A stretch of 41,348 nucleotides of DNA, taken from IMG/VR virus record IMGVR_UViG_3300009000_000013, positions 1 through 41,348 of that record. One strand, written 5' to 3'. Position numbers and translations under genes: made by a program. This DNA is from a virus. Positions 2,117-27,633 of the stretch are shown one piece after another (within the stretch, counting starts at the first letter, position 1; each line of letters opens with the position of its first letter). The notes beneath the pieces are model-generated. The model made no database searches, was not told where the DNA came from, and saw only the letters and a list, made by a program, of their open reading frames with translations.

Positions 2117-2125
2117 TATACATCC

Positions 2126-3636: not shown

Positions 3637-3640
3637 TCGT

Positions 3641-5581: not shown

Positions 5582-5583
5582 TT

Positions 5584-7723: not shown

Positions 7724-8326
7724 TTATCCTGCTAAACTCTGAACACGTACTGTATAATCAATCTGTATTAAGCGGTTGAGTGATTTTTGCACAGGGTGGA
7801 AAATTACGTGTGTTAATAATCTGCCGTTGCCGTCCGCTGAATAACTTCTAAGTCCTAGTTCATCAAATACAAAATTATTACTTTGAGTGCTTGCAGTATC
7901 AAATGCATCTTGTCCGTTTGGTTCGCCGTAGTCTAGCAAACAACTTACAAGTATATCAGTATAGTTAGTACCACTTAAATGGCGTACTTCTGTTTTATTT
8001 CTAACAGGATCAGTATTGTTTACGCTTCTTTCATCTACAACCTTTGAATATGTTTGGTTATATAAAGTTGCATTAGTTCCTGTGCTATTTGGCGTTAGGT
8101 ACGTAATTATCCCAGTAGGATCTACTGAAGTGCCGCCGTTTCCGAACGCCATTTCATATATAAACCCTTGCCCAGCATTAGACAAACTTTCAGCAAGTGC
8201 AATACTCATATTTTCATAATGAATTGCATTACGTTTGTCAATATATACTTTTTGGGATTCAGGATCATATATTTTTATATGGCCTTGAACTAAAACTCCA
8301 TTTGTATCTTGCATATTATCACTCAT
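7724..8326 (-). CDS. Conserved virion structural protein, 200 aa, unassigned
   Basis: I cannot place this protein in a named T4 family. It is beta-rich, with a hydrophilic start, a VLVQGHIKIYDPESQKVYID segment, then IALAESLSNAGQGFIYEMAF and GNGGTSVDPTG, ending in IQIDYTVRVQSLAG. No signal peptide or membrane segment is visible. It lies between the giant baseplate protein and the fibre cluster, the place where T4 carries its wedge and fibre-socket genes (8, 9, 10, 11). A connector or fibre-attachment role is therefore reasonable but inferred. It has its own candidate late promoter and an AGGA ribosome site 8 bases before the ATG. Confidence 0.65.
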   Translation of the reverse strand: MSDNMQDTNGVLVQGHIKIYDPESQKVYIDKRNAIHYENMSIALAESLSNAGQGFIYEMAFGNGGTSVDPTGIITYLTPNSTGTNATLYNQTYSKVVDERSVNNTDPVRNKTEVRHLSGTNYTDILVSCLLDYGEPNGQDAFDTASTQSNNFVFDELGLRSYSADGNGRLLTHVIFHPVQKSLNRLIQIDYTVRVQSLAG

Positions 8327-8344: not shown

Positions 8345-8351
8345 TATTTAT
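8345..8351 (-). promoter_or_regulatory. Candidate late promoter overlapping the giant gene's stop codon
   Basis: The minus strand reads ATAAATA here (AATAAATA with 8352). The TAA stop of the giant gene (8348-8350) is contained in the motif. A start about 6 bases downstream gives a leader of about 13 bases carrying AGGA before the ATG of the 200-residue protein. Overlap with a stop codon makes chance occurrence possible. Confidence 0.45.
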
Positions 8352-11300
8352 TCAGGTAGCTCAGATGTTCCTGCACGTAAGAATCTACCAATACTATTTT
8401 CTGATTCACCTAACGATTTTACACCTTCGTTCCAAATTTTTCCTTGTTTTTTGATTATAGTTACTCTTGAACCTTCTACAGGTACTCGTTTTAATATAAT
8501 AGACTGTGATGTAATATCAAACTGTACATCAGGATCTATTTCATAATCCCCTTCAGGGCTATCTAATTCGTGTACCGGTAGATAATCTTTTCTATAATTT
8601 TTATTCATTCTAGTACCTGCTACAAATATTTCTAATTCGTTAATAGATCCTGTTGGATGATCTACTGTAAATTCAGCAGTTACTCCATCAGCAATATAAT
8701 TTTTAACAATAGTGTTATCTCTGTACGGAATGGTTTTGCTTATATTTTGATCGTATACCTTTGTTCCTGCACTATGGACTGTTTTTATTCCAGTTCCTAG
8801 TGTTCCTCTACGAAGTTGTCTTAGTGTATTACCTTCTTTAACAAAATATTCAATTCTCTCGCCGTTTACAAAAATAATTCCAGGCAAGTTTTGTCCTTTA
8901 TTAGGTTCTGACAACTCGGTTCCGTCTACAACTTCTATTCTTAGATCATACTCATTTAAGTCAGTAGCAAGAGCTGTAGTAGCTGCATCTAGTCTCTTAA
9001 AGTGTGTTCTGTTTAGAATATCTTTAAATTGTCTAAATGCAAACTTAGAAACATTAGTTTCTGCAGAAAAATGTATTATATCTAAAACATCATTTTGTTC
9101 TGGATAATCTTTTAACATTACTTTAGTTTTATCGTCTGTTATGTAATAATCTATATCACCAGATAATAAAGTGCCGTTTTTAATAACCCAAACATACTTT
9201 GCATCAATAGCAGGCTTACGTAATTGGACTTCTCCTACAGTTAATCTTTGATATGTGTCATAATCTACATTGTCAGCTGCAAGAGTTACTCGAGAAACTA
9301 CATCATAATTTAATCTTTCTATTTCTAAAATATCGTGATTACTAAATTGATATATGTCTACTAATGTACCGTCTTGTGGTGCGTTGTTTAGCCTCACAGT
9401 TGCTGGACCAGAAAGTGTATACTCGCCATCAGTAATAACAAATATTTCTAAAGTGTCGCCTGGCTGTCCAATATCGTCTGCTAAAACAACACTACTATTC
9501 GAAATATCAAATCTCCATTGTAGAGCTTCTACTGTTATTCGAACACCGTTAAGAAATACAACAATATCTTCAGTTAACAAGGATCCCGAAGGCTGTTGGA
9601 ATACTTCTAGCAAATATTCTCTTTGACTATTTGCAGGAATAGTATATTGTATATTATAACCTGGGCTTAGTATGTTGTTTCCAACCTTAACAATTAAATT
9701 GTATTGCGAAGGTTTTGAATAGAACGGTCCAGAACTTAAAGTAAAGTCAGTAGTATTGTCGTCACCGACAAAACTATCTTTCTTAAGTTGACTATAATTT
9801 ACCTGTGTATCATTATCAAATATTGCAATGTATACTAAAGTATTATCTTCTGGAGATGTTTCAAAAATTACTGTTGTGTTTTGAGATATCGATTCGCTTA
9901 TTTCAACAGTTTGTTTTACACCATTTACACTAGCATATACACTAAGACCTTCTTGGAATTTAACATTAGTTTCAAATGCAGTTGTGGATCCGTCACCTGT
10001 AAATTCTTCAAAGTCTAAAACATTTTGTGTAGCTTGTGCTAGACAAACAATATTTAATGACGCATTAGACACAAAATTTGCATTATTTGTATTAAGTGTT
10101 AGAGTATTATCCTTCCAGTTAATTGTATAATCAGTATCTAGTTCTAATATTTCGTTATTTAATTTTACAAAAACTGAAGCAGTAGTACCAGGAGTTATAC
10201 CTAACTCATAAGTTAATACAGAAGTATCTAGTCTATAGTTTTGGCTAAAGATTTTTCCTTGGCCGCCGCTTTCTCTAGTATAAACTTTAATATCAAGTGT
10301 ATCAAAAATTTGTCCTGGAACAAGTTCTTCAGGTCCTGCCATTGCTGCTTCAGATATAAATCCGTCACCATCGGTTATAATATCTTCAGCATTAATGCCA
10401 GTTGCAGTATTGTATGCTAAGTCGCCGCCACTTAATTGTGTATCATAACTGTTAGTATCCGGAAGTATACTTCCGTCACTTGTAGTTTTTCTAATTATTA
10501 GCGTATCACCATCTAATAATGCAACATTCAATTCGTCTAATCTAACAATGTCTGTAACACCGTCACCTGTAATACTTTGCATTATTGCACTAGTATTTGT
10601 TACAGGTTCTGCTGTTCCAAAATTAGGATCGTCTAGTCTTACAAATGGATTCGGATTTGGTTCGTCATTGCTTGCTAGACGTCTATACACGTTGTATACT
10701 ACTCCGTTTTCTAGCGGAGCTGATAGCTGTACAGCAATCGTTGACTGATCTGCTGTAAATATTTCATCTTCAAAGGTGTTATCAAATGCATCCCATTGAT
10801 CTGTATACCATCCTCGTGTATCCCATCCTGAAATACCAGCAAAGTCATAACTTCTTACTTCAATGCCGCCGTAATCAATTCCTTTCATTAGTTGTGTAAG
10901 GTCTTTGCCGTACATATCTACAAAAGGATTGTAAGAATGTAAGATTCTGTCTTCGGCACCTAGCATACTTAACGGAAGCTGATACTTAATTTCGATTAAT
11001 GCACCCAATGCAGGAGGATTTGCAAAAATAATTCTTCCTCGTTCTCTTGTATAAGACTTTGATGTATCTTCAAAATTTTCATAAGTATATTTGCTTCTTA
11101 ATTGCTCTATGCCATTTACAAAAACTTGTACCTTTGTGTTGTTAAGATCCATTGGATATGGCAATTCAAAATTAGTATCAAAATTTGTACCAGTATGTAG
11201 TGTTTGTTTAGCAATTGTTTCATATGTAAATTCACCACTTAATCTGTCAAACTTAACACGTATATGCGGAGATCTAACTTTACCGTTGCCTAGTATAGCA

Positions 11301-14300
11301 GTAGCCTTAGCTACAACTCCATTATCTCCTTGTGAGCCTTCAATAATAATATCGGGTTTACTTGTATAACCGTTTCCGGGATTAGTTACTATTATGTCTG
11401 TTACTTTACCATAACCCAATACTGCTTTAGCAGTTGCACCGGCGCCGCCGCCGCCAACTATTTTAACAGTTGGAACAAATGTATAATCTTGGCCAGCATT
11501 AGATATTTTTATTTCTTTAATTTGATAACCTAAATTATCTCTCCAATGTTTTCTTGGATATACTAATGTATTATCTTCTTCTCCTACAAGATTATTATCT
11601 ACTATTGTTGTTATACTTGCATCTATTCTTCCTAAAGATGTGTCGTAATAAGGAGATAAATCAAAGTCAGTTACAGAACTTCTAGTATTATCAATCTTTT
11701 CATAGTTGTCTACATATTCTCTAATATTTGTCGAGAATGGTTTTACTTCTCTTACATATTCTTCAAAGTCTTCAAGATTGTTATACTGGAATGTTATATC
11801 TTGTTCTAATTCTCCTAATTTGTGCTTTGCAGAAATAAAACTTGTTTTAAACATCCAATCTACTCTTGGTTGTTCTGATAAAATATATCTCAAAGATGCT
11901 AAGAACAACTGATTGTATTCAACTTCAAGATCTCCTACAAATATATCATCACGAATTGTTTCTAATATAATACGTAATTCTTTTGTCGGATTATTATCAT
12001 AGAATGTACTATCATAACTTCTGTTATCATAACCAATTGTATTCTTAATAAAATTATATAGATTATCTTTAAATGCAATAGTTCCGTCTTGTCTACCTAT
12101 TGTATTGTAATTAATTGTATAATCTTCTGTATTTTCGTTTGAGATTTTTTCTAGTAAGAGCCAGCCGCCTGATCCAACATTGTTAATTTTAACAATATCA
12201 CCAATTGAATCATTAACGCCAGCAAGCTGGTAAGAATTATCAACAGAAAAATCAATGTTACTAAATTGATTATATCCGTCTGCATACCAATCAACATAAT
12301 CCCAGAATTTTGTAACATCATAGCTTTGAATAGCTGTTCTAATCCACATTCTTTGAGTGTTATCATAAGCATATATAGCCCAGTTATTGAATGCTGTATT
12401 GTCCGATTTAATTAATACTGAAACACGTCTTACATTAATTATAGTAGATTCTGTGTATCCAGAACCTTGAGTAAGTATTTCAGCATTAGTAACCTGACCA
12501 AGATTATTAATAGTTAATTTAAATGACGCTCCTGTTCCGTCGCCCTCTATTTGATAGCTAGGCGGAACTTTATATCCTCTTCCAGAATCTTCAATTACTA
12601 GTCTAATAATTTTTCCGTTTACAATAATAGGTCTAATTTTAGCCTGTGTAACTTTATTAGTACTAATAAATTCTAATTCTTCAAAAGTATCAATTTCAAA
12701 ATCGAAACGATTTGTAATAAATGTAGGAATTTCTTCTTTGCGTAAAAGTTCTGATATATTCTTCTCATCTACTATAATATTTTTAGAAAGAACAAAATTT
12801 ATCCTTTCAACTGCTTGCTTTAATGCTTCAACACGATTTACAAACATACTTTGTCTTGGACGATTTTGCACACCATAGCGTTTTGCAACTGGTATTGTTG
12901 CATCAGGCACAACACGACCATTGTCGTCAACACCAATTAAGCTATCAAACCATTTACGTTCAATATCCTTGTTTGGTTTACTTGTAGCAAGTTTGTCTGA
13001 CAAAATTTGATATTGTCTATGCTCGTTTTGATCTTGATTTTTACCATCAGAGTATCTAATGTTTAATACAAGATCGTCTGATGTAACTAAGCTATCGAAA
13101 TTATTCAGCACAAATTTATCTTCTGATAGGAAGCTTATAAATCTATATCCTTCTTGACGAGGTCTTGCAATTAAATTAGCTATAGTTTGTATATTTAAAT
13201 TTCTGTTTTCTATTTGCGGAATAGTAGTTTTATTTTGTACCCAGAAATAATATTTTGTTGTAAATGTTTGACTTATATCATCGTACGATAGTCTTGCACT
13301 ATATTTGTTATCTCCGTATATTGCTCGACCGCTTATTCCTAATGCAACTCCGTTATCTGTATCTGCAAGTTGATTCCACTGACTTGGTAAGTAATCGCTT
13401 TCTACCCATTCGTAAACGTCAATACTAGAACCAGCTAATAACTTATTCCATTCTCCTTTTTGGAATGATGTTGATCCTTGGTAAGGATAAGAAAATCTTG
13501 CAGTCGAAACATTCCACCAAACTTGACCAACATATGTTTTACTCCAATATGTTTTAGGATTTACATTTTTGTCTGCCAAATCTCCTACATTATATGTTGC
13601 AGGATCTAATGGCAATTTGTAAGTTATTTCTTGTTCTGCAATACCGGCAATTTTTCCTTGCAACGGATCAATATAATCAATGTAAGATACTATTTCGTTA
13701 GTTCTCTTATTATATAAGAACGCTCCTTCTATTTTAGATACGTCTACAGGCACTACACTTGATCTAATTTCATTATATGAAATTTTATTTTTTGGTTTTC
13801 TGTAATCTAGTACCGCACCTCTTTTATTACCAGAAGTTTGATTAGGAAGTCCTACGTAAATGTGATTATCTTCAATTAATAAATTACGTCCAAATTCTAT
13901 TTCTGCATTTTCGTATATTAATCTTTCTGAGAATAGTAAGTTATTTTGTAAATTTTCAAATATGTAAATATTACCCTTATCTATTTTAGAATTTTTAAAT
14001 GATGTAAACTTACTATCAAACGTAGTTTCTGTTCTAGTTTCAGAAGTTGTATCCAAAACATACGAATTTTCCAAAGCTTCTTCAAACGTGTCGAAGCGAG
14101 TTGGTATTGACACATCGCCATTGATACTAGATACAACTAGACTATCCTTACCGTATGCTAATGAATTACCAAAGCCTTCAACTTCTTCGTTGTTTGGTGA
14201 ATATAGCTTAATGTTAGGTTGTGTAATTTCTCCATCAACAGTTCCAAACTTTTGATTTGTATAATTGTATTCATAAACCCAAACAGAACCTTTATTAAAT

Positions 14301-17300
14301 CCTTGTTCGTCATCTAGCGGAACACTTACTGCTATCTTGTTTCCTTGAGGATTGATAGATACAGAATCTGCCCATTTATTAATGTCAATATATACGTCAG
14401 GTGTTTGAGCATCATTATCGTGATCACTTAAAATATAACTGCTTGATGGTGCTTTTATAATTTGAGAAAGTTCATATTTGTTATCTTTTAATTTATAAAT
14501 TGCAATAGCTGTTTCTAATGTACTATCTGACAATTGTTGTTTTGATCTAACAACTAAAGTTTCACCCTTGTCGTCTAAGGAAAATGTCGATGCAAATTGT
14601 TCTATATTTTCTATAGGATCGTAAGTTTCTTCTAATAATGCCTTGAAGCTAGTTAAATTTGGAAGATAACCTAAATAATCAATTCTATCGTCTGTTATAC
14701 TCCACGATGTATTTTCTTCAGAAGGTACACTTATTGAACTTGTAATGTTTGTGGTTGCTGTCCAAAATACAGACCCATAAAGAACAATATCTCCTAGTTT
14801 ATAACTAGCAGTACTGTCATATGTTCCTCTGTAATTAATATCTTTTCCTCTTTGCCAACTGATATTATTCCAGTAAATAGAATTTTTTATTTGATCTTCA
14901 TTTACTGTAGTATCTTTTAGTGCAATATAATAATTGTCTCTCCATTTAACAACATCGCCAATTGAATATGCTTTGTTTAATTGATACGAGCCTAAGAAGT
15001 TTTGATCTATAGTTGTCCCGTGATTATATATTTCAATAGCACCAGGATTTTTCCTCCATTCATACGGATCATTTCTAGCGTCTCCAGAAGGTTTATTAGA
15101 AATTAAAAGCTTATACAAGTTGTTTTGTTTTTTAATTTCTACTTTAGAACCAAAGTGCTTATCTTTTCCTGCATATTCTGAAACTAATGTAATTTGATAC
15201 TGATAAGATCCAGTAACGTCTTTTCTAAAAATGCTAACAGCACCTTGATTTAAGTACCCAGTTGTGCCTGTTTTTTCTGCAGGAATGTTATAAACCTGCT
15301 TAAAGTCTTTGTTTAGACTAGAAGGATAATTAGGTTCTCTATCAATACCTGTAATAATATCTTCATTAAAGAAATAATATTCTTGATCAATAATTGGAGT
15401 TACATTATCCCAAGTAAATGTTGTTGGAAAGTTTCTTCCGCTATCAATAACTAATAATTTTCCTATTAAACTTGTACCAATTGCAATATCATTGTTAGGA
15501 TTTAATACAGTACCTATAATTTGATCAGGATCACCGTTGCCTCTAAGACCTGGGTTCGACAAACGTCTTAATTCATATCTTCCGATGTTTGTTAATTGCT
15601 CCCAAGAACCTGAAGCAATATCTGGTCTTAATTTTACATATACTCTTACACTATTAAAGTTTCTTTGATAAAATACAACTTCCGCCGCACTTGTTGTAGT
15701 AGTAGTTAAAGCAAGGCCGCCTTGGCCGTCTCTAGGATATTGCACATCTACTAGCACATCTCCAATTTCTGGTTCAAAAACATTACCTTGGAAATCAAAT
15801 TCTGTAAAATCAAAATCAATAAATCCATCCCACATATCTTGAATAGTATGTGTACCTGTAATATCGTCAGTTGTAATGCCAGTCGGAGTAATATCATATG
15901 CTGAATTATCAAAAAACTTAATATTAATTTGATAACTAGGATTGTTTAAAAATCTTTGATAAATTATATCGGAATATGTTTTTGATATTCTTATTACAAA
16001 CCTCGAATCCGGTCTTGATAATTCTAAACCGTTGTTGTCGCCAGTAAACGAAAGATGATTTATAAAACTTGCTTGGTTCTTTCTTAAAACATACGGACCA
16101 ATTTCAGAAATTGTATCTTGAATATTATCATAGACATTTATTGGTTCATTATCAAGTATTTGCGCTGCTGTTCTAACATCAGAATAAACTAGTCCTCGAC
16201 CAACATCATAGTAAGCACGGTTGTTAGAATATGTAAACTCATCTCCAGAAAATAGTTCAGTTGTTTGTGGCTCAGGGTCGTTTCCAATATTATATGTCTT
16301 AAATAACCAATATCCTGATACTTCCTCTGACGTTGCATATGTATTTTCTTCGGTATAGAAGCCTACAAAATCTCCAAATGCAGTAAACAATTCACCGTTA
16401 ACTGTAAATACGCCGTTTCTATTTTTTAAGTAGAGTACCGCACTATCTCTATTAGTACCTACATAGTATACTTCAGCTGTCCCTGTGTCAGTCTGTATAA
16501 AGTCTCCTATATTAGGTAAAGTTACAAAAGTTTCTATAAAGAATATGTTATCAATTTTTTCTTGGATAATATGTTCTCTAGATAAAAAGTTTACAGACAG
16601 TTCTGATATTCTGTTATCAAAAGGAAAATAATCATCTAATGTTGGATATGCAAAACTTCTTTGATTCCAGTACAATGTAACTCCGTCGCCGGGTGCTGTT
16701 CCATTGTACATATCGCTAGGTGCTCTAATTAAAAAGTGATCTGTTACATTATTTTCTAAACCAGGATCTCCCGATACAAGTAGTGTTAAACTTGTACTAT
16801 CTGTATCTGCTTGATCTACTAAGTTAATATAAGAATCAAATGTACTAAAGGGCTGATCTTCAATTTTTGGTAATATTTCTCTGTTTGCTCTCCATAAACT
16901 TTCTTTATATCTAACTATATCACCTTTAACATAACTAGTGTCTGTATCAAAGTTTCCTTTAAATTTAGTTTTTACATAACTTGCATCTGGTGCACCGATT
17001 ACTAAATATTCGCCATCTTCGGAAACATCGATACTCTGTCCAAATTTTGAAAGTGCAGGATCATAGTAAAGTATAGCATCATCGGTTTGCTGTGTCCAGT
17101 TTTCTGCAACTTCTGCATCACTAAAAAACGTTCCACTAATGTGATTTCTTTTTGCTTTCCAGTATGTTCTAGTACTATCTAAATCATATACAACTATATC
17201 GTTTGTATTATATCTAGTATTTTCAGTCCACACTTCAATAAAGTCAGGTGGCAAAATTGTTTGATCAATTTTTAAATCCCAAGACTCGTTTGTTCTTCTA

Positions 17301-20300
17301 TAGTAATCAACTTTACCATTAAGCTCTGAATCAGAACTAACAAACAAATTTCTATTGTCAGCGGTAACTGCTATACTGTTTGAATAGTTTTGTAGTATAC
17401 CTTCAAAACTTTCTATATTTTGTATTTCTTGTCTTTTTGCATATATTGGTGAATTTTCTATAACTTTCCAATCGTTATTAGAATAGTTTTCAATCCAAAA
17501 TCTTTGATTTGGATATAGTTTTTGCTGTGCTAGAGTATTTGCTTCTGATATATCATTAACTTTTACAGAACGTAATTTAGATACCGTAAATTTTTGATTT
17601 ACAAATGTATCGGGTAGATCATCTTCAGGTACATAAACTGTAACGCTGTTTAGATTTATACTTTTAACAATGTATAATCCTGTAAGATTATATTCTTCAG
17701 CATTTTTAATTCCAATAATATCTCCTTCTTGAATAAACGGAGACGCCCATCTATCAAGAGTAATCTTATATGTAACTTTACCATCTTGTGCAACTAAATT
17801 ATCTTCGGATAAGTCTAATGCATACGCATCTGCGTGTATATGTTGAAATACATTCCAAGGCTTAACTCCTGATTCAGTGATCCATATATAATCTCCAAGT
17901 CCTAAAAGATTTACATTACCATTTGGTAATTCGTCTTCCGAACTTGCTACAAATGTCACATCTTCTTCTCTTACAAATCCGCCTGATTTTATATATTCTT
18001 CTGTAACAACCTTTGTCGGGAAAGGTTTATGATTATAGTCTACAGGTTTATCATAAACTTCGTAGGGCAAAATTCTATAGTGCTTATCAAAATTAGAATT
18101 AGGAATTACATTAACTAATTCTATTGCCTGCGGTGACTCTAAAAGTTTATCTTCTTTTAGATTAAACTCGACTTGTTTTTTATTATCAACAGCGCCATAT
18201 CTTCCAACTTGCAGAGCCCATTCTTCATAAAACTCCAAAGTATTCTCACCGGCACTACCTAAAGATCCAAACAGTTTAGTTAAAGCATTTTTTGTACCTT
18301 TGTCTTGTATAAATCCTTGATAGAATTTATACTGACTTACATCATCAGGTATAATATTTGACAAATATTGTCTTTTCTGGAAACCAGTAAGATGTTTTGC
18401 CATTCTTTGTAATTCGCTATCAAAACCTTGCGTATCTAAACTATAAAAATCATTAAATTGATTAATTCTATAATCAAAGTTTGTTAGCAATTCAGATTCA
18501 GGTTTTTCACTTAATCTATACCATTTACTACTATCAAATTTAGAAGCACCTGATACATTGGCAACTGCTACATAATAATATTGTTTATATTTTATAAGAT
18601 TACCAATTTTATAATCTTTCCATTTTTCCCAATCTACTACTGTTGCGTCATCAAATATAAAGCCCGGTATGTTTAATCCTCCATTCCAGTCAGCTGCTTT
18701 ATATCCTGAAATTCTAATTCTTTCTTGTCTATAACCAGTTGAAGGTTGGAATACAATATCATTAAAAACCGTTTTATTGTCAATTAAAACAACGTGTTCT
18801 TTTTGTACAAGCGGCAACGATGCACTATACAATCCTTCTGCTGTATTTTCTGTTTGTATTCCAAAACTGTTTTGATTTCTTAGTAAGCTACTAAATTCAC
18901 TTGACAAAGGTTCGCCGTTTGCTTGTAAGATAGAGTAAGGATAAAACTCATCATTAATATTATCAACTACATAATAGTCTTTCTGGAAGTTAAATTTGTT
19001 TGCAGCAGGTGATAATGTTATCACTGTGCCTGCGGCCCAACCTTGTGTAGTCCAGAACAAAAATTCTCTAGCAATTTGGTCCCAGTTATTAACTGATCCA
19101 TCTTCTTCTACAAAGTTAAAATCAAATCCAATTTTTTGTAACTGTTTTCCGTAACCTAATAAAAAGTCTACTACTTCTTGAGAAGTTCTTAGTGTTGTTC
19201 CGTATGCTAAACTTTGAGCAACTGTCTCAAAGTTGCTTTTAAACAATGCTGTTTTGCCGCCGACTGTAGGCAACTCAGGTAGTTTAACTAAGTTTTCTAA
19301 ACTAAATGTTTCTTTAGATGTATGAGTTTTTATTACTCTATAATAATCATTTATATATTCTACTACTGTATCTTTTACATAGTATTTTCTACCTTGCCAT
19401 TCTGAAGAATCTTCAGAAATTCCGCCAACAGTGACCGGAACTGCTTTACTACCAGAGAGTGGCATAAGATAATTAAAAAATGGATTTTCGTTATTATACC
19501 CTCTTATAGTGTATCCTGAAGCAGTTTTCTCAACAACTACGCCACTATATACTGCTACATCTAAAGGAGAACTAGTATTAAAGAATATTTTATAGTTTTC
19601 TTGAGGAATATATATTCCTCCCTCTTCTAGCTGTTGTTGAGGACTTCTGCTATCAAGAATTAAATTTAATTTTTTAGTATCGCTAAAACTACCTAATTTA
19701 AAACCAAGTTGGTTTGTTATACTAGTAACTTCGTTTTGGTAGTCGTTGTAAACTGTCAGTATATCACTTGCAACTAAATTATAAATGTAATTTACAAGGC
19801 CAGCAGTTAGTACTCTTTCATTATCTGCATATGTATTAGGAAACACAATACTATCAAGTGTAATATTCTTGTTTGTTACAGAATATACTTTTTGATTTGC
19901 TAAGTTAGTTGATATTCTTGATACATCAAATGCTTCGCCGATTATTTTTGAAGGTTTGTTTACTATCATACTTAATAGCACTGCAAACGGATAATCAGAA
20001 CTTCTACGCCACGCTGTTTCTACAGGAGCTTCGTCACCGAAAGTAAAATTACCTGTTGATTGGCGCAAAACAAATTGTTTTACATATCCACTTTCTTGTG
20101 GATGTTTAAGTTTGCCTTGAGAATCAACTGGTATCCAAGAAGTGATTCCTGGTCTTGCATAATCAGCATTATACCTTATATTTCCTGGCTCAGCAATTTT
20201 TCCTTCTTGGATATCTCTCCATAGAATTAAATTGTCACTTGTGTACGGAGCAGGTCCGTATACTTCATTCCACCATTTTGGTTTTATTTTGAAACCTAAT

Positions 20301-23300
20301 ATTTCCCAAGGATTGCTGTGCGGACGATCAGTATCAAATGCACGTTTGTATATGCCTCTCCAGAAACCAGGCAGTGGTTGAGAAGTTGGGCTTAATGCTT
20401 GTGAGTAATTAAACGTAAAAGGATTAAGTCTATCATAGAAAAAATTATCTGTATAATCATTATCAACTAGTGTAAGCCATTTTGTAAAACTAGACAACAA
20501 ACTACGATCTACTTCTTGCTTTGTAAATTCGCCGTCTCTCCAGTCGCCGCCGATAAATTTATCTACATTAATAATATTTGTGTCATAATTTACTTTAATA
20601 TTATTAAAAATTCTCTTTTCAAAATCTAAAAGTAATTCGTCTCTGTAATCAAGATACGCACGAATATAACTACCGTCGTGACCTTTAATAAATGCAACAC
20701 CTATTGGATATGCATCAATTTCTACATTATCGGTGCCGCCGTGAGTTCCTCCGGTGCCTGGCATATATAAATTAATATTCAATCCGTTAAAGGTGTGTGT
20801 ATGGTATGTTCCTGTGCCTCCAGCATCTATATCAGCAGTTGTTGCTGATTCTTTTGTAGTGTATAAAGGATAAAACCATCCTCTAATATTAGTAGCACTA
20901 TCTTCACCGTAAATTTTATAAGGACCATCATCAGTAGGTTGATCTGTTTGGTAAGTATCATCTATAACTAGTTCAGGTTCGTACTTGGGATACAATCCTA
21001 ATTTTGTTGGGGTTGGTGCAATATAACTTCCGTCAGATGTATTATATTCATAAATTTCAATAATGTCATTTTCAATTTGATTTGCACTAATATCAACATA
21101 CCCATCTGATCTAAATGTGTAATCTTTGCCGTTAACTAGTTGCTTTTTATTAAGATAAACATTTACACATTTAGCTGATATTTTTTCTAAAGTAAATGCG
21201 GTGCTAAGAGGATATTGAGTTATTCTCGAATCTAAAACTTTATATTCTATTCTATTATTTGGTCCGTATGAAAGCATATCGGAAAAATAAAAGGGTTGAG
21301 ATTTAATTTTATCTTTATTAATTACTTCTAAAACTTTATCAACGTGTTGTTTTGTTTCTCCGTCAAAACCTAAAGACTCAGCTGTTTCAAGAAATACTCT
21401 TTTAAACTTATTATATTCTTTGTTTGCATAAGATACAGATTTTATTAGATTGTATTTTTTATTAGTAATATGATACAATGACAAGTTTAACGGACTTGCG
21501 TGTTTTACAAATCTTTTACCGTATTTGTCTGTATCGCCTAGATCTCTAAGATTTCCAAGTCCAGGATATACTCCCTTAAACCCTGGTGCTTCTTCAATCA
21601 TACTATTAACGTGATCAATAACCTCTCCTAGAGTAAATTCATTTATATCTTCGTTAAGAGGATTTCTTTCTAAGTTAATAGGAAGTTCATAATATCCGTT
21701 ATTATTTTTTGTTTGTTTACTAAATGCTTTAATTACAACAGAATCGTTTTCTTGTAAAGGTGTATAAAAGTTTACAAATGCTTTCTGGTTAATTCTTGTG
21801 ATTTCGTAATCTGTATTTTTTACACTTAGTTTATTGTTAACATACACTACAACTTTTAAATCGTTTAAGTCGCCTGCGCGGTCAAATACATCAATAGGAA
21901 AATCATTATTTAAATCAATATTAGCAATGTATTGTCTTATAACATACTGCTTACTTTGTATAGGATTATTTGTCCAACCATTTACATATGTAAAATCTGT
22001 TATAGTTTTATATTTTCTTAAAAAAGCTGTATCAGTTTTAACACTAACTAAATCTTCGCCGTCTTGTACACTAAAAGTATCATTCAACAAATTAAATTCA
22101 AAAACAATATCTCCAGAATTTTCAATTGTTTTATACGACAACGGAAACCCAAGTTCAACGTCATTAGAACCTTCACCTACTTTATAAGAAAATATCTTTG
22201 TTCCTTTAAATGTTGAGGAAGAAAATACATCTAGGTCTGCGTATTCATTTCCTTGCGGGCAACAAAGATCAAACAACGGAGGCTGATTTCTAGTTGTTTT
22301 TTCTTGTGCTTCTATCCAGACATTTTTATGGTAGTGAAATGTTTTGCCGCCGAACTTTTTACCTTGTGTAACAAATATTGTTTCTAAATCTAAAGGATTT
22401 GTATCCTCAGTTTCTACTAAATTAATTTGTCTATTATTATTAATTGTAACAAATCTAACTTTATAAATTTTACCAGAAACTAAACTATCAGTATCAGATG
22501 CAAATAATACACGCATACCTTCAGCTAAATCTATGCCGTCAATATTATAACCTAACTTTCCTTCAATAGTCGAAAATACATCTTTTGTAAAAGTATCTAT
22601 TAAGTCGATATCAGTTTTTGCTTCGGCTCCATAATTAAATAATTTTAATCCTGCTTCAAACTCAATAATTGGACGTCTTGCTCTAAAATTTTCGTCTATG
22701 TCTACAGACAAATTATTATATTCGTAACTCTTTACCAAAACATCTCTATGAAACCACTTGTTATAACGACTCCAGGGATTTTTGTCTTGACTTGCACGAT
22801 TAATTATAATATAATCTTTTTCAGCCGCATATGCACTTGCATTTGCAAATGGCAAACTATCAAATTTGTCACTATCAAATGGTATTAATTTATTTTCACT
22901 ATATGACGCAGGAATTATTAGATCTTTTTCATTTATAAGAACAATTTTATCTCCAACACCTTCTACATACCAAAGATCTTGCTCATACTTTTTAGGCAAT
23001 ACGTCACCTTGGAATTCTACTTTCATACCATTTGATAGTGCAACACCATTTGCACTTGTATAAGTTTTCTTTCCTAAAATATCTTCTTCAACATTTAAAA
23101 AAGTGTTTTCTTCAATGTCATATACTCTAATAACACCGCTTGTATCTACATTATTTTTACTAATATAGTATAGTCTATCAGGTGCATTTGTAGGTATTGT
23201 AAATTCAATTGTACCTTGTTCAATGTATGCAACTGCAACTTCTTCACCTTCTTCACCTATTTTTCTAATTCCATCAGGATAAAGTGTAGATACGTTTTCA

Positions 23301-24121
23301 TCGTCCTCAAATGTTACACTGCCACTGCTAGGTAAAACAATAAATTCGCCTACATCATAACTGATACCGTTTGCATCAAACAGTGTTGCATCATAAAGAC
23401 CACTATCACGAAGTCCAGCAGACCCTGCTGTAATAATAGAAGAGCCTGGAGTAAAACTTCTAGTTATAGCAATAGCCATAGGATGGCCAGGTGCATCAAT
23501 TTCAAATCTATAAGTTTGTCCTCTATATAATTTTAGTGTCGGATTACGTGTAAGTCCATCATTAAATACATAAGCAACATTGTCACCTTGGTCTTCTACT
23601 GTAACTGTATAAGTGCTTATAACTTCTTTGCTTTGACCTCTTACCGGAACACTTAACGGACCATTAGGGGCCCAGTAGTATTCTCTGAAATTTGTAAATT
23701 TATCCCAATCAATATTTGGGTTCCAAGCATAGTATTCGCTGTTGTTTAATCTACTGTGATTTTCTGTATTACTTTGGAAATAATTTAATGTTCCTATATA
23801 ATCATTATAGTCTTTGTAAAAAGTTACATTGTCTAAATTGTCCTTTATTACAGTAGCCGGTTCAAGCTGATAGTTTTCTCTATCAGATGTTACATCCCCA
23901 ATATAGTTGTCAGTTGATTTAAAAGATTTTGCAGTTTTTCTTCCTACATAACCGTTAATTCTTTCTGCCACACCTGGCTGAATTAACTGATCTATTGTTC
24001 CTTGGAGGAATTTTTTGTTAGCCTCAGTTCTAAAAAACTTAGGAATAAAGTCAGAAGCTGTTCGCTTTTCATTACCATTAGTTGGTAACGGGCTTTCGTT
24101 TTGATTATCATTGTAAGCCAT
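8348..24121 (-). CDS. Giant 5257-aa baseplate/tail structural protein (gp7 position)
   Basis: One uninterrupted frame of 5257 codons follows gp6, sharing one base with its stop (TAATG), so translation is probably coupled. T4 has wedge gene 7 here (about 1030 residues). The N-terminus contains WDKFTNFREYYWAPNGPLS, a cupredoxin-like region (about 190-335, GHPMAIAITRSF) and FHYHKNVWIEAQ near 594. Carbohydrate-binding-like repeats with the pattern YxxGDxVxYxxxxYxA lie near 1575, 1830, 2293, 2389, 3041 and 3095. FG-GAP-like blades (e.g. SIDVSEDGEYLVIGAP) lie near 2240, 2356 and 3174-3445. KRYGVQNRPRQSMFVNRVEA is near 3700. Glycine repeats with GSGYT/GNGYT lie near 3844 and 4211. At least seven VNG-type repeats fill about 4307-5257, and the chain ends SIGRFLRAGTSELPE. 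No transmembrane segment is evident. I infer an elongated gp7-like wedge or side-fibre protein; the detailed role is unknown. Confidence 0.8.
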   Translation of the reverse strand: MAYNDNQNESPLPTNGNEKRTASDFIPKFFRTEANKKFLQGTIDQLIQPGVAERINGYVGRKTAKSFKSTDNYIGDVTSDRENYQLEPATVIKDNLDNVTFYKDYNDYIGTLNYFQSNTENHSRLNNSEYYAWNPNIDWDKFTNFREYYWAPNGPLSVPVRGQSKEVISTYTVTVEDQGDNVAYVFNDGLTRNPTLKLYRGQTYRFEIDAPGHPMAIAITRSFTPGSSIITAGSAGLRDSGLYDATLFDANGISYDVGEFIVLPSSGSVTFEDDENVSTLYPDGIRKIGEEGEEVAVAYIEQGTIEFTIPTNAPDRLYYISKNNVDTSGVIRVYDIEENTFLNVEEDILGKKTYTSANGVALSNGMKVEFQGDVLPKKYEQDLWYVEGVGDKIVLINEKDLIIPASYSENKLIPFDSDKFDSLPFANASAYAAEKDYIIINRASQDKNPWSRYNKWFHRDVLVKSYEYNNLSVDIDENFRARRPIIEFEAGLKLFNYGAEAKTDIDLIDTFTKDVFSTIEGKLGYNIDGIDLAEGMRVLFASDTDSLVSGKIYKVRFVTINNNRQINLVETEDTNPLDLETIFVTQGKKFGGKTFHYHKNVWIEAQEKTTRNQPPLFDLCCPQGNEYADLDVFSSSTFKGTKIFSYKVGEGSNDVELGFPLSYKTIENSGDIVFEFNLLNDTFSVQDGEDLVSVKTDTAFLRKYKTITDFTYVNGWTNNPIQSKQYVIRQYIANIDLNNDFPIDVFDRAGDLNDLKVVVYVNNKLSVKNTDYEITRINQKAFVNFYTPLQENDSVVIKAFSKQTKNNNGYYELPINLERNPLNEDINEFTLGEVIDHVNSMIEEAPGFKGVYPGLGNLRDLGDTDKYGKRFVKHASPLNLSLYHITNKKYNLIKSVSYANKEYNKFKRVFLETAESLGFDGETKQHVDKVLEVINKDKIKSQPFYFSDMLSYGPNNRIEYKVLDSRITQYPLSTAFTLEKISAKCVNVYLNKKQLVNGKDYTFRSDGYVDISANQIENDIIEIYEYNTSDGSYIAPTPTKLGLYPKYEPELVIDDTYQTDQPTDDGPYKIYGEDSATNIRGWFYPLYTTKESATTADIDAGGTGTYHTHTFNGLNINLYMPGTGGTHGGTDNVEIDAYPIGVAFIKGHDGSYIRAYLDYRDELLLDFEKRIFNNIKVNYDTNIINVDKFIGGDWRDGEFTKQEVDRSLLSSFTKWLTLVDNDYTDNFFYDRLNPFTFNYSQALSPTSQPLPGFWRGIYKRAFDTDRPHSNPWEILGFKIKPKWWNEVYGPAPYTSDNLILWRDIQEGKIAEPGNIRYNADYARPGITSWIPVDSQGKLKHPQESGYVKQFVLRQSTGNFTFGDEAPVETAWRRSSDYPFAVLLSMIVNKPSKIIGEAFDVSRISTNLANQKVYSVTNKNITLDSIVFPNTYADNERVLTAGLVNYIYNLVASDILTVYNDYQNEVTSITNQLGFKLGSFSDTKKLNLILDSRSPQQQLEEGGIYIPQENYKIFFNTSSPLDVAVYSGVVVEKTASGYTIRGYNNENPFFNYLMPLSGSKAVPVTVGGISEDSSEWQGRKYYVKDTVVEYINDYYRVIKTHTSKETFSLENLVKLPELPTVGGKTALFKSNFETVAQSLAYGTTLRTSQEVVDFLLGYGKQLQKIGFDFNFVEEDGSVNNWDQIAREFLFWTTQGWAAGTVITLSPAANKFNFQKDYYVVDNINDEFYPYSILQANGEPLSSEFSSLLRNQNSFGIQTENTAEGLYSASLPLVQKEHVVLIDNKTVFNDIVFQPSTGYRQERIRISGYKAADWNGGLNIPGFIFDDATVVDWEKWKDYKIGNLIKYKQYYYVAVANVSGASKFDSSKWYRLSEKPESELLTNFDYRINQFNDFYSLDTQGFDSELQRMAKHLTGFQKRQYLSNIIPDDVSQYKFYQGFIQDKGTKNALTKLFGSLGSAGENTLEFYEEWALQVGRYGAVDNKKQVEFNLKEDKLLESPQAIELVNVIPNSNFDKHYRILPYEVYDKPVDYNHKPFPTKVVTEEYIKSGGFVREEDVTFVASSEDELPNGNVNLLGLGDYIWITESGVKPWNVFQHIHADAYALDLSEDNLVAQDGKVTYKITLDRWASPFIQEGDIIGIKNAEEYNLTGLYIVKSINLNSVTVYVPEDDLPDTFVNQKFTVSKLRSVKVNDISEANTLAQQKLYPNQRFWIENYSNNDWKVIENSPIYAKRQEIQNIESFEGILQNYSNSIAVTADNRNLFVSSDSELNGKVDYYRRTNESWDLKIDQTILPPDFIEVWTENTRYNTNDIVVYDLDSTRTYWKAKRNHISGTFFSDAEVAENWTQQTDDAILYYDPALSKFGQSIDVSEDGEYLVIGAPDASYVKTKFKGNFDTDTSYVKGDIVRYKESLWRANREILPKIEDQPFSTFDSYINLVDQADTDSTSLTLLVSGDPGLENNVTDHFLIRAPSDMYNGTAPGDGVTLYWNQRSFAYPTLDDYFPFDNRISELSVNFLSREHIIQEKIDNIFFIETFVTLPNIGDFIQTDTGTAEVYYVGTNRDSAVLYLKNRNGVFTVNGELFTAFGDFVGFYTEENTYATSEEVSGYWLFKTYNIGNDPEPQTTELFSGDEFTYSNNRAYYDVGRGLVYSDVRTAAQILDNEPINVYDNIQDTISEIGPYVLRKNQASFINHLSFTGDNNGLELSRPDSRFVIRISKTYSDIIYQRFLNNPSYQINIKFFDNSAYDITPTGITTDDITGTHTIQDMWDGFIDFDFTEFDFQGNVFEPEIGDVLVDVQYPRDGQGGLALTTTTTSAAEVVFYQRNFNSVRVYVKLRPDIASGSWEQLTNIGRYELRRLSNPGLRGNGDPDQIIGTVLNPNNDIAIGTSLIGKLLVIDSGRNFPTTFTWDNVTPIIDQEYYFFNEDIITGIDREPNYPSSLNKDFKQVYNIPAEKTGTTGYLNQGAVSIFRKDVTGSYQYQITLVSEYAGKDKHFGSKVEIKKQNNLYKLLISNKPSGDARNDPYEWRKNPGAIEIYNHGTTIDQNFLGSYQLNKAYSIGDVVKWRDNYYIALKDTTVNEDQIKNSIYWNNISWQRGKDINYRGTYDSTASYKLGDIVLYGSVFWTATTNITSSISVPSEENTSWSITDDRIDYLGYLPNLTSFKALLEETYDPIENIEQFASTFSLDDKGETLVVRSKQQLSDSTLETAIAIYKLKDNKYELSQIIKAPSSSYILSDHDNDAQTPDVYIDINKWADSVSINPQGNKIAVSVPLDDEQGFNKGSVWVYEYNYTNQKFGTVDGEITQPNIKLYSPNNEEVEGFGNSLAYGKDSLVVSSINGDVSIPTRFDTFEEALENSYVLDTTSETRTETTFDSKFTSFKNSKIDKGNIYIFENLQNNLLFSERLIYENAEIEFGRNLLIEDNHIYVGLPNQTSGNKRGAVLDYRKPKNKISYNEIRSSVVPVDVSKIEGAFLYNKRTNEIVSYIDYIDPLQGKIAGIAEQEITYKLPLDPATYNVGDLADKNVNPKTYWSKTYVGQVWWNVSTARFSYPYQGSTSFQKGEWNKLLAGSSIDVYEWVESDYLPSQWNQLADTDNGVALGISGRAIYGDNKYSARLSYDDISQTFTTKYYFWVQNKTTIPQIENRNLNIQTIANLIARPRQEGYRFISFLSEDKFVLNNFDSLVTSDDLVLNIRYSDGKNQDQNEHRQYQILSDKLATSKPNKDIERKWFDSLIGVDDNGRVVPDATIPVAKRYGVQNRPRQSMFVNRVEALKQAVERINFVLSKNIIVDEKNISELLRKEEIPTFITNRFDFEIDTFEELEFISTNKVTQAKIRPIIVNGKIIRLVIEDSGRGYKVPPSYQIEGDGTGASFKLTINNLGQVTNAEILTQGSGYTESTIINVRRVSVLIKSDNTAFNNWAIYAYDNTQRMWIRTAIQSYDVTKFWDYVDWYADGYNQFSNIDFSVDNSYQLAGVNDSIGDIVKINNVGSGGWLLLEKISNENTEDYTINYNTIGRQDGTIAFKDNLYNFIKNTIGYDNRSYDSTFYDNNPTKELRIILETIRDDIFVGDLEVEYNQLFLASLRYILSEQPRVDWMFKTSFISAKHKLGELEQDITFQYNNLEDFEEYVREVKPFSTNIREYVDNYEKIDNTRSSVTDFDLSPYYDTSLGRIDASITTIVDNNLVGEEDNTLVYPRKHWRDNLGYQIKEIKISNAGQDYTFVPTVKIVGGGGAGATAKAVLGYGKVTDIIVTNPGNGYTSKPDIIIEGSQGDNGVVAKATAILGNGKVRSPHIRVKFDRLSGEFTYETIAKQTLHTGTNFDTNFELPYPMDLNNTKVQVFVNGIEQLRSKYTYENFEDTSKSYTRERGRIIFANPPALGALIEIKYQLPLSMLGAEDRILHSYNPFVDMYGKDLTQLMKGIDYGGIEVRSYDFAGISGWDTRGWYTDQWDAFDNTFEDEIFTADQSTIAVQLSAPLENGVVYNVYRRLASNDEPNPNPFVRLDDPNFGTAEPVTNTSAIMQSITGDGVTDIVRLDELNVALLDGDTLIIRKTTSDGSILPDTNSYDTQLSGGDLAYNTATGINAEDIITDGDGFISEAAMAGPEELVPGQIFDTLDIKVYTRESGGQGKIFSQNYRLDTSVLTYELGITPGTTASVFVKLNNEILELDTDYTINWKDNTLTLNTNNANFVSNASLNIVCLAQATQNVLDFEEFTGDGSTTAFETNVKFQEGLSVYASVNGVKQTVEISESISQNTTVIFETSPEDNTLVYIAIFDNDTQVNYSQLKKDSFVGDDNTTDFTLSSGPFYSKPSQYNLIVKVGNNILSPGYNIQYTIPANSQREYLLEVFQQPSGSLLTEDIVVFLNGVRITVEALQWRFDISNSSVVLADDIGQPGDTLEIFVITDGEYTLSGPATVRLNNAPQDGTLVDIYQFSNHDILEIERLNYDVVSRVTLAADNVDYDTYQRLTVGEVQLRKPAIDAKYVWVIKNGTLLSGDIDYYITDDKTKVMLKDYPEQNDVLDIIHFSAETNVSKFAFRQFKDILNRTHFKRLDAATTALATDLNEYDLRIEVVDGTELSEPNKGQNLPGIIFVNGERIEYFVKEGNTLRQLRRGTLGTGIKTVHSAGTKVYDQNISKTIPYRDNTIVKNYIADGVTAEFTVDHPTGSINELEIFVAGTRMNKNYRKDYLPVHELDSPEGDYEIDPDVQFDITSQSIILKRVPVEGSRVTIIKKQGKIWNEGVKSLGESENSIGRFLRAGTSELPE

Positions 24122-27100
24122 TAGTAACTATTTCCTCCGCTATTAGTTATGAGTCCGCCAGTAGTTGATGTTGTAGTAGAACTGCTAGATGCACTAGTAA
24201 TTCCATTTGTTATAGTTGTCGAAACACTAGTAATAACATCACCTGATGCTTGTAGTTCTGTTGCTGTTAATTCGTCAATTATTTCAATGTCGCTCACTTT
24301 TGCACCACTAATAAAAATTTCTTCTAATTCTGATTTAATCTCAAAAAGACTTCCGAAACTTTGGTTACCTTGACGGGGAACAATAATAATACTTAAAAGT
24401 TTTGGACTTAATGTATTCATAATATATGCACTAAGCTCTTGGAAGTAAAATGTTTCGCCAAAGTCCCAATTTTCTATTTCAAAAAATGTATCAATAGCAG
24501 AAATAATATCTGATTTTAGTTCATTTTCGTTTACAACTAAATTTCTATTTCTAACAATTTTAAATTTAACTTGCAAGTTTGTATCTGCCTTTTCGCCAAA
24601 CAATACTTTATACTTAACTGGATGATAAACTACTTCGTCGCTTATTGACTTAATTGCAGTTATACTGTCTCCGTATGCCCTAGTTAAAACATCGTTGCTA
24701 GGCGGCGTCGGTTTTACAGAAGTTTGTCCTGAAATATATTTTCGCATTTCAGTATCATAATTTTTTGTTAGCAAATATGTGTCTATAATATTACTTGCAC
24801 TTGGATCAATTCTATAGTTACTATCAGCAACGTGTACATAATGGAACTTTAATCCACTTCTTCCAGTAAATGCTTTGTAATTAGAATTAAGTGTAGTATT
24901 TCCAGCTGCCTTGTTTAAAGTTTTAAATACCTTTTCTTCTAACAAGTAAAAAATCTGTCCTTCGTTATGAGAATTATAAGCGCCAATACTGTTTTCATTG
25001 TTTACTATTTTAATTTCTAAGTTAGTATTATCAAAAAACTTATAATCTTCTACACCGTCAGTTGTAGTATATTTCTTTTGGAATATAATCTTCTTTGATA
25101 TATTAACAAAATCATTATTTTCGTCAACAATAACATTAAAAATATCTAAATCATCTGCTGTTCCGTCGTCGTCTAAATCAAAAAATTCAACCTGTATTTT
25201 TCTAGTATCAGTATATCCTTCGCCGTCTCTATAAGCATCATTAATAGACCAAAGAAAATCTCTCGAATAAGAAGAATTACTTGACTGCTGTTTATTAATA
25301 CTTAAAACTTTGATTTGGTCTCTAAATATTTTTCCTGAAGTTGGATCATAAATCTTATCTGCATTATCAAAAAAGAATCTTATTTCGTCAGCACTTTCAA
25401 ATACATATCTTTGATTTCTATTAGTAATAGTATATGTTTCGCCATTAGTTTTAAAATATAACAACCAACTTGAATCTAAATTTTCACCGGAAATGTCTCC
25501 TGACTTTCCTAATGAAAATCCGTTAATAGTATTAATGTCTTCTGCAAGGATTAATTTCCAATCTCTTTCTTCTGTATCGTATCTAAGAGCAAAATCTTTA
25601 TATGCAAAAGTTTGATCAATTATTTGTACCTTTAAATCATTTGAAAATGTTTTTGAAAATACTGGAACAATTTCAATTATTTTACTACCTTCATTTATAG
25701 TATCTGAAAGAACAATGTCTCCGACATTGTTTTCATCAAAACTATTTCCTTCATTAGTAACGCTAACAACTTTTGTCCAACGATACGTTGATGCTCCGAG
25801 CTCAGTATCTAAAGTAGTTAATGTTCCGTTTGGCAAGAAGAATTGCGGAGTACCATTAGCAGTAGTTGGAGGTGCAAATTTAATCATTGCGCCTGGTTCT
25901 AAAAATCTTAAATTATTTGTAACAAAAGATCCTACTTTAAATGTTTGGTTACTGTCAAGTTCTCCTACAAGTATTCCAGAATTTTGATTTGTACTTTGAT
26001 AATAATTTTTCCAGACAGCTGATAAATCGCTTGTAGACTTTCTTGGATATTGTCCGTTATAGAAATTACGTAAGTTCGTAGATTGTATTATGCCTTCTAC
26101 TGTATTATATATAACACCCTCAATATCACTTTGCGTAACAAATTTAAAATCAGTATTTGTTTCAAATGTATCTCTATAAATTACACCATCATCTGCAAAC
26201 AAACTAGTGTTGCTGTATTTTCCTGTTGCGTCTTTAAGATCAAAATAACGGCTTATACCACTAGAGATTCTATTAACACTTTTTGTTTTAATAATATCTT
26301 GACTAATTGCTAACGGTCCAACATTATAATCTTCTGCTGTAATTAATCTGTTTTGTGTATAATAAGTTGCTGGAGCATTTTGTTTTATACTTGTATTTGT
26401 TTCAGTAGCTGATCCGTTTGATACTGTATAATTTAATCTTAGTCCAAGTGTAAGTTTTTCTAAGTTTCCGTTTCTACCTTGATAAGGAATTTCTATGTTA
26501 ACATTACCGATAGAATTTGGAGTAACAATCATATTTGCATTAGCACTTGTTCTATAGAAAACTTTAAAATTACCTGCAGGTAAGTTTCCAAAAACTCCAT
26601 CACTAAAAACTAAATTTATTCTGTCGCCTACTCTAGTTACAACTGAAAATATATTTCTTATTCCTGAAAAAAGGCTATTGTAAATTACGTTATTACCTTC
26701 TACATTATCTAATTTAGTCCAACCTTGTGTTTCAAAGCCGTTAGAATCAATGTTATATAACCATACATCGTCATTGTTAATATTTTCTGCATCTACTGCA
26801 ATAATTTGATTAGGCACTGGATTGTTTACAGCAAAATTACCTGTTTCTAGTTTACCTTGACGGAAGTGCATAAAAAACCCAGTATTGATACTAGAAGCAC
26901 CTTGACCGTCGTCGCGAAAAAGTAAAGCAGGACTTGTTCCTGGTAGAGGAGGTTCTTCTACAATTTTTGAACCTTGAATATCTGTACTTACAACTTCAAA
27001 TCGTGTACTTACTCCTTCAATATTTTTAGAGAAAGGAAAAATAGCACTGTCTGTATTAGTAGATTGTAATCTATATTTTTGTGTTTGTACACCGTCAATA

Positions 27101-27633
27101 TTCTGAGATTTCAAAGGATTACCAATTGAATTTTGTACAGGTAATGCAGCATTTAATATTTTAATAAATTGTTCAAAATAACCTGTGTTACTTTGATCAT
27201 TCCATTTAATAACTCGACCTGCAAGCTGTGAGCCTGCGCTATCTTTTAAATTTTCAGTTGTTTTTACTGTAGCAATTTTTAACAATCCGTTTGCTGCTTG
27301 ATTTCTGCGTGGATTGTATGACAACATACGTGCTAAACGAAGAATTGATTCTCTACGTTCTGCTGTTTCAAGGAAATTTTCTCTAGCATTTAGATCAACA
27401 CGGAATGATAAGTTTTGCCCAAGGAATGCAATCATATCAATTAGTGCAAGGTATTCGCTAGACTCGATATAGTCGTTAAAATCTTCTGGATAGTTTTGAC
27501 GCAGATAATTAATCATTGTTCTGCGTAAATTATCAAAATCATAGCTTTGGAAGTCTGCATTCCTAAAACTTTGATATATTCTTTTCCAGTCTTCAGTTAC
27601 TAATAACCTTGATTGTCTGTCGCTTGTAGACAT
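24121..27633 (-). CDS. gp6: Baseplate wedge protein gp6
   Basis: The first 120 residues are typical of gp6 of marine T4-like phages: DWKRIYQSFRNADFQSYDFD, LRQNYPEDFNDYIESSEYLA, then NARENFLETAERRESILRLA and MLSYNPRRNQAANGLLKI. T4 gp6 forms the heart-shaped dimer that joins wedges into the baseplate ring. This protein has 1170 residues against about 660 in T4, so it is much enlarged, mostly in the middle. The region around residues 1040-1110 (VKFKIVRNRNLVVNENELKS ... WDFGETFYFQELSAYIMNTL) matches the J-like core shared by baseplate J/gp6 proteins. The last 40 residues are almost only Ser, Thr and Gly. It follows gp25 after a 60-base gap carrying a candidate late promoter and has an AAGGAA ribosome site before its ATG. 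Confidence 0.9.
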   Translation of the reverse strand: MSTSDRQSRLLVTEDWKRIYQSFRNADFQSYDFDNLRRTMINYLRQNYPEDFNDYIESSEYLALIDMIAFLGQNLSFRVDLNARENFLETAERRESILRLARMLSYNPRRNQAANGLLKIATVKTTENLKDSAGSQLAGRVIKWNDQSNTGYFEQFIKILNAALPVQNSIGNPLKSQNIDGVQTQKYRLQSTNTDSAIFPFSKNIEGVSTRFEVVSTDIQGSKIVEEPPLPGTSPALLFRDDGQGASSINTGFFMHFRQGKLETGNFAVNNPVPNQIIAVDAENINNDDVWLYNIDSNGFETQGWTKLDNVEGNNVIYNSLFSGIRNIFSVVTRVGDRINLVFSDGVFGNLPAGNFKVFYRTSANANMIVTPNSIGNVNIEIPYQGRNGNLEKLTLGLRLNYTVSNGSATETNTSIKQNAPATYYTQNRLITAEDYNVGPLAISQDIIKTKSVNRISSGISRYFDLKDATGKYSNTSLFADDGVIYRDTFETNTDFKFVTQSDIEGVIYNTVEGIIQSTNLRNFYNGQYPRKSTSDLSAVWKNYYQSTNQNSGILVGELDSNQTFKVGSFVTNNLRFLEPGAMIKFAPPTTANGTPQFFLPNGTLTTLDTELGASTYRWTKVVSVTNEGNSFDENNVGDIVLSDTINEGSKIIEIVPVFSKTFSNDLKVQIIDQTFAYKDFALRYDTEERDWKLILAEDINTINGFSLGKSGDISGENLDSSWLLYFKTNGETYTITNRNQRYVFESADEIRFFFDNADKIYDPTSGKIFRDQIKVLSINKQQSSNSSYSRDFLWSINDAYRDGEGYTDTRKIQVEFFDLDDDGTADDLDIFNVIVDENNDFVNISKKIIFQKKYTTTDGVEDYKFFDNTNLEIKIVNNENSIGAYNSHNEGQIFYLLEEKVFKTLNKAAGNTTLNSNYKAFTGRSGLKFHYVHVADSNYRIDPSASNIIDTYLLTKNYDTEMRKYISGQTSVKPTPPSNDVLTRAYGDSITAIKSISDEVVYHPVKYKVLFGEKADTNLQVKFKIVRNRNLVVNENELKSDIISAIDTFFEIENWDFGETFYFQELSAYIMNTLSPKLLSIIIVPRQGNQSFGSLFEIKSELEEIFISGAKVSDIEIIDELTATELQASGDVITSVSTTITNGITSASSSSTTTSTTGGLITNSGGNSY

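Follow-up and report, generated by a model that had tools for sequence, protein, structure and literature searches.

A conserved giant protein encoded directly after gp6 in an uncultured phage is a probable baseplate protein with a predicted beta-propeller insert

The window analysed here is the whole 41,348-nucleotide stretch of IMG/VR record IMGVR_UViG_3300009000_000013. Its minus strand carries baseplate and tail genes, listed here in the order of transcription, among which a single open reading frame (ORF) encodes a protein of 5257 residues.

35541..35840, minus strand: gp53-like wedge gene (phrog_7145)
28144..30936, minus strand: gp5-like hub gene with a peptidase-like C-terminal region (phrog profile matches)
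27694..28131, minus strand: gp25-like wedge gene (phrog_261/43)
24121..27633, minus strand: gp6-like baseplate wedge gene, 1170 aa (phrog_10646, E 2.5e-295; phrog_219; gp6 tree)
8348..24121, minus strand: giant ORF, 5257 aa, in the gp7 position downstream of gp6 (ORF list; phrog_10938; homologues in jumbo phages and IMG/VR)
7724..8326, minus strand: 200-aa gene that also follows the giant ORF in relatives (phrog_11259)
2126..7713, minus strand: three tandem tail-fibre/collar-type genes with a common N-terminal module (profile matches and comparison)

The giant frame was translated through 5257 codons with zero internal stops. With the base composition of this DNA, stops would make up about 7.6% of random codons, giving a log10 P of about -181 for the open frame, which excludes its being open by chance. 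The ORF is 5.1 times as long as T4 gp7 (1032 aa) and takes up 15,774 of the 41,348 nucleotides, or 38%, a figure that describes the window only and not the whole virus genome because the record is a 41-kb fragment. Its start codon and the stop codon of the gp6-like gene share 1 base (TAATG), and a purine-rich, ribosome-site-like sequence, AGCGGAGG, lies 12 nt upstream of the start. A preliminary description of this DNA had reported the single uninterrupted frame, its share of the window, its fivefold length relative to T4 gp7 and the 1-base overlap with gp6, all of which were borne out. Its placing of the gene in the baseplate operon is likewise supported by the 53-like, hub-like, 25-like and gp6-like genes upstream and by the same neighbourhood in relatives. 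A read-through artefact was considered and rejected, the gene being intact in relatives apart from a single frameshift in one contig (L185). In that contig the frameshift falls near 10.9 kb, between two long frames, and is probably a sequencing or assembly indel.

The preliminary description had also seen several repeat classes in the protein. This was borne out in part: CBM_5_12 and FG-GAP_2 exceed their Pfam cut-offs in the middle of the protein, and GYT-type repeats were found. No DNA tandem repeats were detected inside the gene and BLASTP of the protein against itself gave zero matches at E<1, suggesting that the repeats are old and divergent. Weak phrog matches of the giant protein to 'portal' and 'head closure' families were put down to shared repeats and rejected as indications of function. 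A near-identity DNA search among phages returned no match.

Several features of the neighbouring genes were recorded. The gp5-like hub protein (28144-30936, minus strand) has a peptidase-type endolysin domain (phrog_1768, phrog_2649) at its end in place of a T4-type lysozyme, and a separate lysis-type gene (30948-32213) adjoins it. The 200-aa gene follows the giant ORF in 8 of 10 testable loci of relatives, and its PA5oct counterpart, gp357, is annotated with an ESI-MS/MS note. The module common to the three fibre-type genes (2126-7713, minus strand) spans ~90 aa with the pattern P..P..GQLWYD...L..YDG..W; the gene at 5584-7713 (minus strand) shows a tail collar domain plus a weak match to Gp10_C, and that at 2126-3601 (minus strand) a Peptidase_G2/IMC-type C-terminus. 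Downstream of the giant ORF, the window showed no recognisable gp8 homologue. On the divergent plus strand, 36899-40589 holds apparent late sigma factor (gp55-like), gp47-like and gp46-like genes, a neighbourhood also present in RaK2, Munch and PA5oct. A 149-aa ORF at 40818-41267 (plus strand) looks like a GIY-YIG-type endonuclease, judging from its N-terminal GFVYLITNLTTGQKYVGKK.

Relatives of the giant protein are encoded on at least 599 IMG/VR stretches. Full-length ORFs of the fetched uncultured relatives measure 4692-5140 aa, and many others run past the ends of their loci. Of 165 testable loci, 162 have a gp6-like gene immediately upstream, and 130 show the 1-base overlap. By tblastn, homologues were found in 84 phage records, and phrog_10938 matched all three slices of the protein (E 5e-211, 7e-52 and 1e-52). 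The gene after gp6 encodes 4449 aa in Atu_ph07, 3857 in PA5oct, 3807 in SCTP-2, 3326 in RaK2, 3771 in Vibrio phage 2.275.O, 4555 in Phosso and ~3340 in GAP32, Munch, XbC2 and 121Q; the XacN1 homologue is ORF325 (3313 aa). In Salicola phage SCTP-2 the gene in the gp6 position ahead of the giant ORF (L004:8624-17914) encodes 3096 aa and has no tblastn match to the window gp6. A gp6 tree, in which T4 and XacN1 sit on long branches, placed the window within an uncultured clade beside the cultured RaK2/Atu_ph07/PA5oct group and far from T4 and the cyanophages. A search of IMG/VR for intermediates with Atu_ph07 and SCTP-2 slices found none. Comparison with five relatives gave pN/pS below 0.6 for all segments of the gene, indicating purifying selection throughout. 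The giant gene is thus real, conserved and common among uncultured phages.

The preliminary description had named proteomics of a related virion as a check, and published or annotated data provide it: a homologue or gp6-adjacent counterpart is present by mass spectrometry (MS) in PA5oct, phAPEC6 and CBB. The record of the PA5oct homologue, gp355, bears an ESI-MS/MS note. In the phAPEC6 virion table, gp245 (381.9 kDa; 17 unique peptides, 7.6% coverage) is listed after the baseplate wedge protein gp244 (131 kDa; 21 unique peptides, 24.2% coverage) (PMC7247149). In CBB, CBB_236 (21 peptides, 7.72% coverage) adjoins the baseplate wedge protein CBB_237 (PMC5259590). The phAPEC6 and CBB proteins were assigned to the giant family by size and position. 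Together, these data support the giant family being a virion protein in relatives. The low coverage of the counterparts agrees with a low copy number, although such values are semi-quantitative only.

To describe the anatomy of the protein, we aligned it with 31 homologues, 21 of them uncultured and 10 from cultured phages (alignments A1-A6). The alignment separates a scaffold (aa 1-180, 420-960, 1140-2100 and 3420-4140) from insertions (181-420 and ~2101-3420) and a variable C-terminus. All segments are on the minus strand:

23582..24121, minus strand: aa 1-180, N-terminal conserved core (A1, 25-79% identity; lowest pN/pS)
22862..23581, minus strand: aa 181-420, insertion mostly missing from cultured jumbo-phage homologues (occupancy 0.12-0.28 in cultured relatives)
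20882..22861, minus strand: aa 421-1080, conserved core (A2, 26 invariant columns)
17822..20701, minus strand: aa 1141-2100, most conserved large core (A3, 49 invariant columns)
13787..17371, minus strand: aa 2251-3445, predicted inserted beta-propeller interrupted by more beta-rich domains (FG-GAP_2; AlphaFold2; PDB fold matches)
16847..16960, minus strand: about aa 2388-2425, CBM5/12-type module (Pfam and motif scan)
14717..15004, minus strand: about aa 3040-3135, two consecutive CBM5/12-type modules (motif scan; CBM_5_12 above cut-off with 2 stretches)
11522..13861, minus strand: aa 3421-4200, C-terminal conserved core, e.g. VDWMFKTSFISAKHK (A5, 33 invariant columns)
8351..11521, minus strand: aa 4201-5257, variable C-terminal part (A6, one invariant column)

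The invariant residues of aa 1-180 are P27, G60, R81, YQ84-85, Y105, D107, P135, N144, Y148 and W150 (A1), and aa 164-225 weakly match phrog_677 (T4 gp9/gp10-type). A CBM5/12-like module lies within the aa 1141-2100 core at about aa 1574-1602, with CBM_5_12 found in 13 of 24 members; PA5oct and SCTP-2 retain a CBM-like stretch near this position. GYT-type glycine-rich repeats occur at about aa 3886 and 4200-4285. Near aa 5049-5109 is an 'ERIEYF...LRQLRRGTLGTG' module in common with cyanophage gp7 (hhalign score of 32.5 against the N-terminus of cyanophage gp7). Profiles of all segments searched against solved structures gave nothing credible except chitin-binding modules.

Structure prediction of slices, also proposed in the preliminary description, was informative for the insert. 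The AlphaFold2 model of aa 2251-3450 reached a pLDDT of 85.8 and a pTM of 0.73, and its top PDB fold matches were mostly beta-propeller proteins (among them WD40 complexes, integrin headpieces and sialidases). FG-GAP-like blades were located at about aa 2360, 3176, 3250, 3317 and 3410. In the uncultured clade, FG-GAP_2 was found in 14 and CBM_5_12 in 15 of the 17 insert members, and both exceed their Pfam cut-offs in the window protein (CBM_5_12, 36.6 bits against 26.2). Pfam did not detect FG-GAP in the Atu_ph07, Phosso, PA5oct, SCTP-2 and RaK2 homologues. As modelled, the insert is a clade-specific FG-GAP-type beta-propeller with CBM5/12-type modules. These modules may have a protein-binding or structural role instead of binding glycans. 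The scaffold slice aa 1141-2280 was modelled with modest confidence (pLDDT 76), and Foldseek against the PDB gave no solved fold relative and no gp7 among its matches. The pN/pS values were lowest in aa 1-180 (0.15-0.23) and amounted to 0.41-0.58 in propeller segments 2101-2400 and 2961-3450, compared to 0.15-0.29 in the N-terminal and 1141-2100 cores. A surface position alone may explain the faster evolution of the propeller segments.

The interpretation that follows rests on our findings that the gene is intact, syntenic and under purifying selection and that its product is modular with a predicted propeller fold; virion presence is taken from others' data on homologues and counterparts. We propose, with a probability of roughly two in three, that the protein is a giant structural component of the baseplate periphery, with its scaffold on gp6 and the wedge at low copy and its propeller-CBM region and C-terminus directed outward to bind glycans. 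The scaffold, present in few copies, would pack onto the wedge and gp6, and the propeller with its CBM5/12-type modules, together with the variable C-terminus, would probably project outward. The projecting part probably binds host-surface or matrix glycans, which would help attachment alongside the separate fibre genes. The protein's probable place is on the baseplate, in contact with the host surface.

A stronger claim, compatible with this periphery role, is that the protein is a true but hugely expanded orthologue of T4 gp7, a wedge-initiating subunit whose core elements have been separated by insertions. The preliminary description had assigned the gene to the gp7 position; its location directly after gp6 bears this out, and homology to T4 gp7 did not reach significance. 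Among T4-like phages, gp7 has been reported to have diverged into many clusters (PMC3037559). Directly following gp6, cyanophage P-SSM2 encodes PSSM2_111, a 5195-aa protein annotated as gp7, baseplate wedge initiator, and gp7-position proteins in other cyanophages span 1.9-4.9 kaa (P-HM2, 4454 aa; Sf-CH5, 4878 aa). As a positive control, cyanophage gp7 N-termini were matched to the T4 gp7 core (hhalign 94.5%, E 7.5e-8). A tiled hhalign search, in which 372 shuffled or reversed decoys scored at most 27.5 and the T4-cyanophage control scored 70, gave two candidate counterparts:

18152..18334, minus strand: aa 1930-1990, FYQGFIQDKGTKNALTKLF, candidate counterpart of the T4/cyanophage gp7 FYSTKGIEASYKFLFKVLYNEE core (hhalign 27.3, about the decoy maximum)
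16352..16546, minus strand: aa 2526-2590, small beta module (marginal hhalign score of 33.2 to T4 gp7 domain V, above all decoys)

A second, weaker domain V-like match lies at aa 2810-2861 (29.7). The KGT-like and then domain V-like signals follow the T4 order along the giant protein. However, the KGT signal (27.3 for aa 1933-2039 against the cyanophage KGT core) is not above the decoys, and AlphaFold2 confidence in that region is below 50-60. Segment-by-segment hhalign of the giant protein to T4 gp7 was not significant, and profiles of every segment left T4 gp7 unmatched among solved structures. Pfam gp7 domains appeared at chance level only (Gp7_5th reached a best E of 0.06, ranked below unrelated families and was found in only 3 of 54 members), and the candidate core lies within the slice for which Foldseek gave no gp7 match. 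The position therefore suggests a gp7 identity that the sequence does not prove, and we give orthology somewhat less than even odds.

The preliminary description had explained the protein as a wedge protein expanded into a fibre- or whisker-like appendage. A wedge-region protein enlarged by inserted modules is what we find; the appendage is decidedly unlikely, because GAP32 carries a homologue and the insert is predicted to be a globular propeller. The protein is repeat-rich, beta-rich and very long, fibre genes come next, and several of its cultured relatives belong to the 'hairy' jumbo phages (PMC7247149, PMC5259590). GAP32, though, is the phage that the CBB authors used as a possibly whisker-less comparison (PMC5259590), MS covered the counterparts poorly for their size, and no tandem array was detected in the gene or protein. 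Equally doubtful, or nearly so, is a tail-associated depolymerase whose propeller would degrade glycans enzymatically, for example as a sialidase. The fold matches include sialidase and NanJ propellers, and the slice adjoining the propeller weakly matches phage endosialidases (~200 columns, E 4e-3). These fold matches are at 6-13% identity, however, WD40 and integrin-type propellers match equally or better, and Pfam gives no enzyme family. That this is a non-virion protein merely located in the baseplate operon is scarcely credible: proteomic detection comes from relatives and not from this virus itself, but it extends to virions of three of them, and adjacency to gp6 is conserved.

A bolder and rather unlikely version of the baseplate-periphery reading is that, in a large uncultured phage clade, the gp7-position wedge protein gained a complete propeller-plus-CBM receptor-binding head at a fixed scaffold site, so that one polypeptide would reach all the way from wedge core to host surface. 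If true, glycan binding by such a head could be coupled directly to the triggering of the baseplate, with no connector or fibre needed as separate parts. More broadly, the giant virion proteins next to gp6 in jumbo phages and cyanophages are a widespread feature, occurring on hundreds of uncultured contigs. Their conserved scaffold can now be told apart from a lineage-specific insert of glycan-binding type, and exact segments are defined for expression and folding, as a route to identifying the replacement, or the enlargement, of T4 gp7 in these phages.

The best viral fold matches of the giant protein are uncultured Caudovirales database entries named 'YHYH domain-containing protein' (e.g. 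A0A6J5L0K2; E 3.5e-95, 34% identity). T4 gp7 shares the genomic position and a marginal profile hint to domain V, but is one fifth as long and has no significant sequence or fold match to the window protein. Cyanophage gp7 is giant, occupies the same position and has GYT-type repeats and an RG-type module in common with the window protein; its N-terminus, in contrast, holds a clear T4 gp7 core that is undetected in the window protein, and the remainder is not alignable. Also among the closest known systems is the phrog_10938 family of RaK2-like, PA5oct-like and Atu_ph07-like phages (PA5oct gp355, Atu_ph07 gp180, RaK2 gp70, phAPEC6 gp245 and CBB_236), which lies at the same place after gp6 and has a homologous scaffold at 24-31% identity (tblastn). 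Its cultured members are 3.3-4.6 kaa long, compared to 4.7-5.26 kaa in the window clade, and RaK2, GAP32 and 121Q have only about 107 aa where the window protein has its 2101-3420 insert. Members of this family are virion proteins by MS in three phages. The giant protein is therefore not unprecedented, being a member of a kind already present in cultured jumbo phages and cyanophages.
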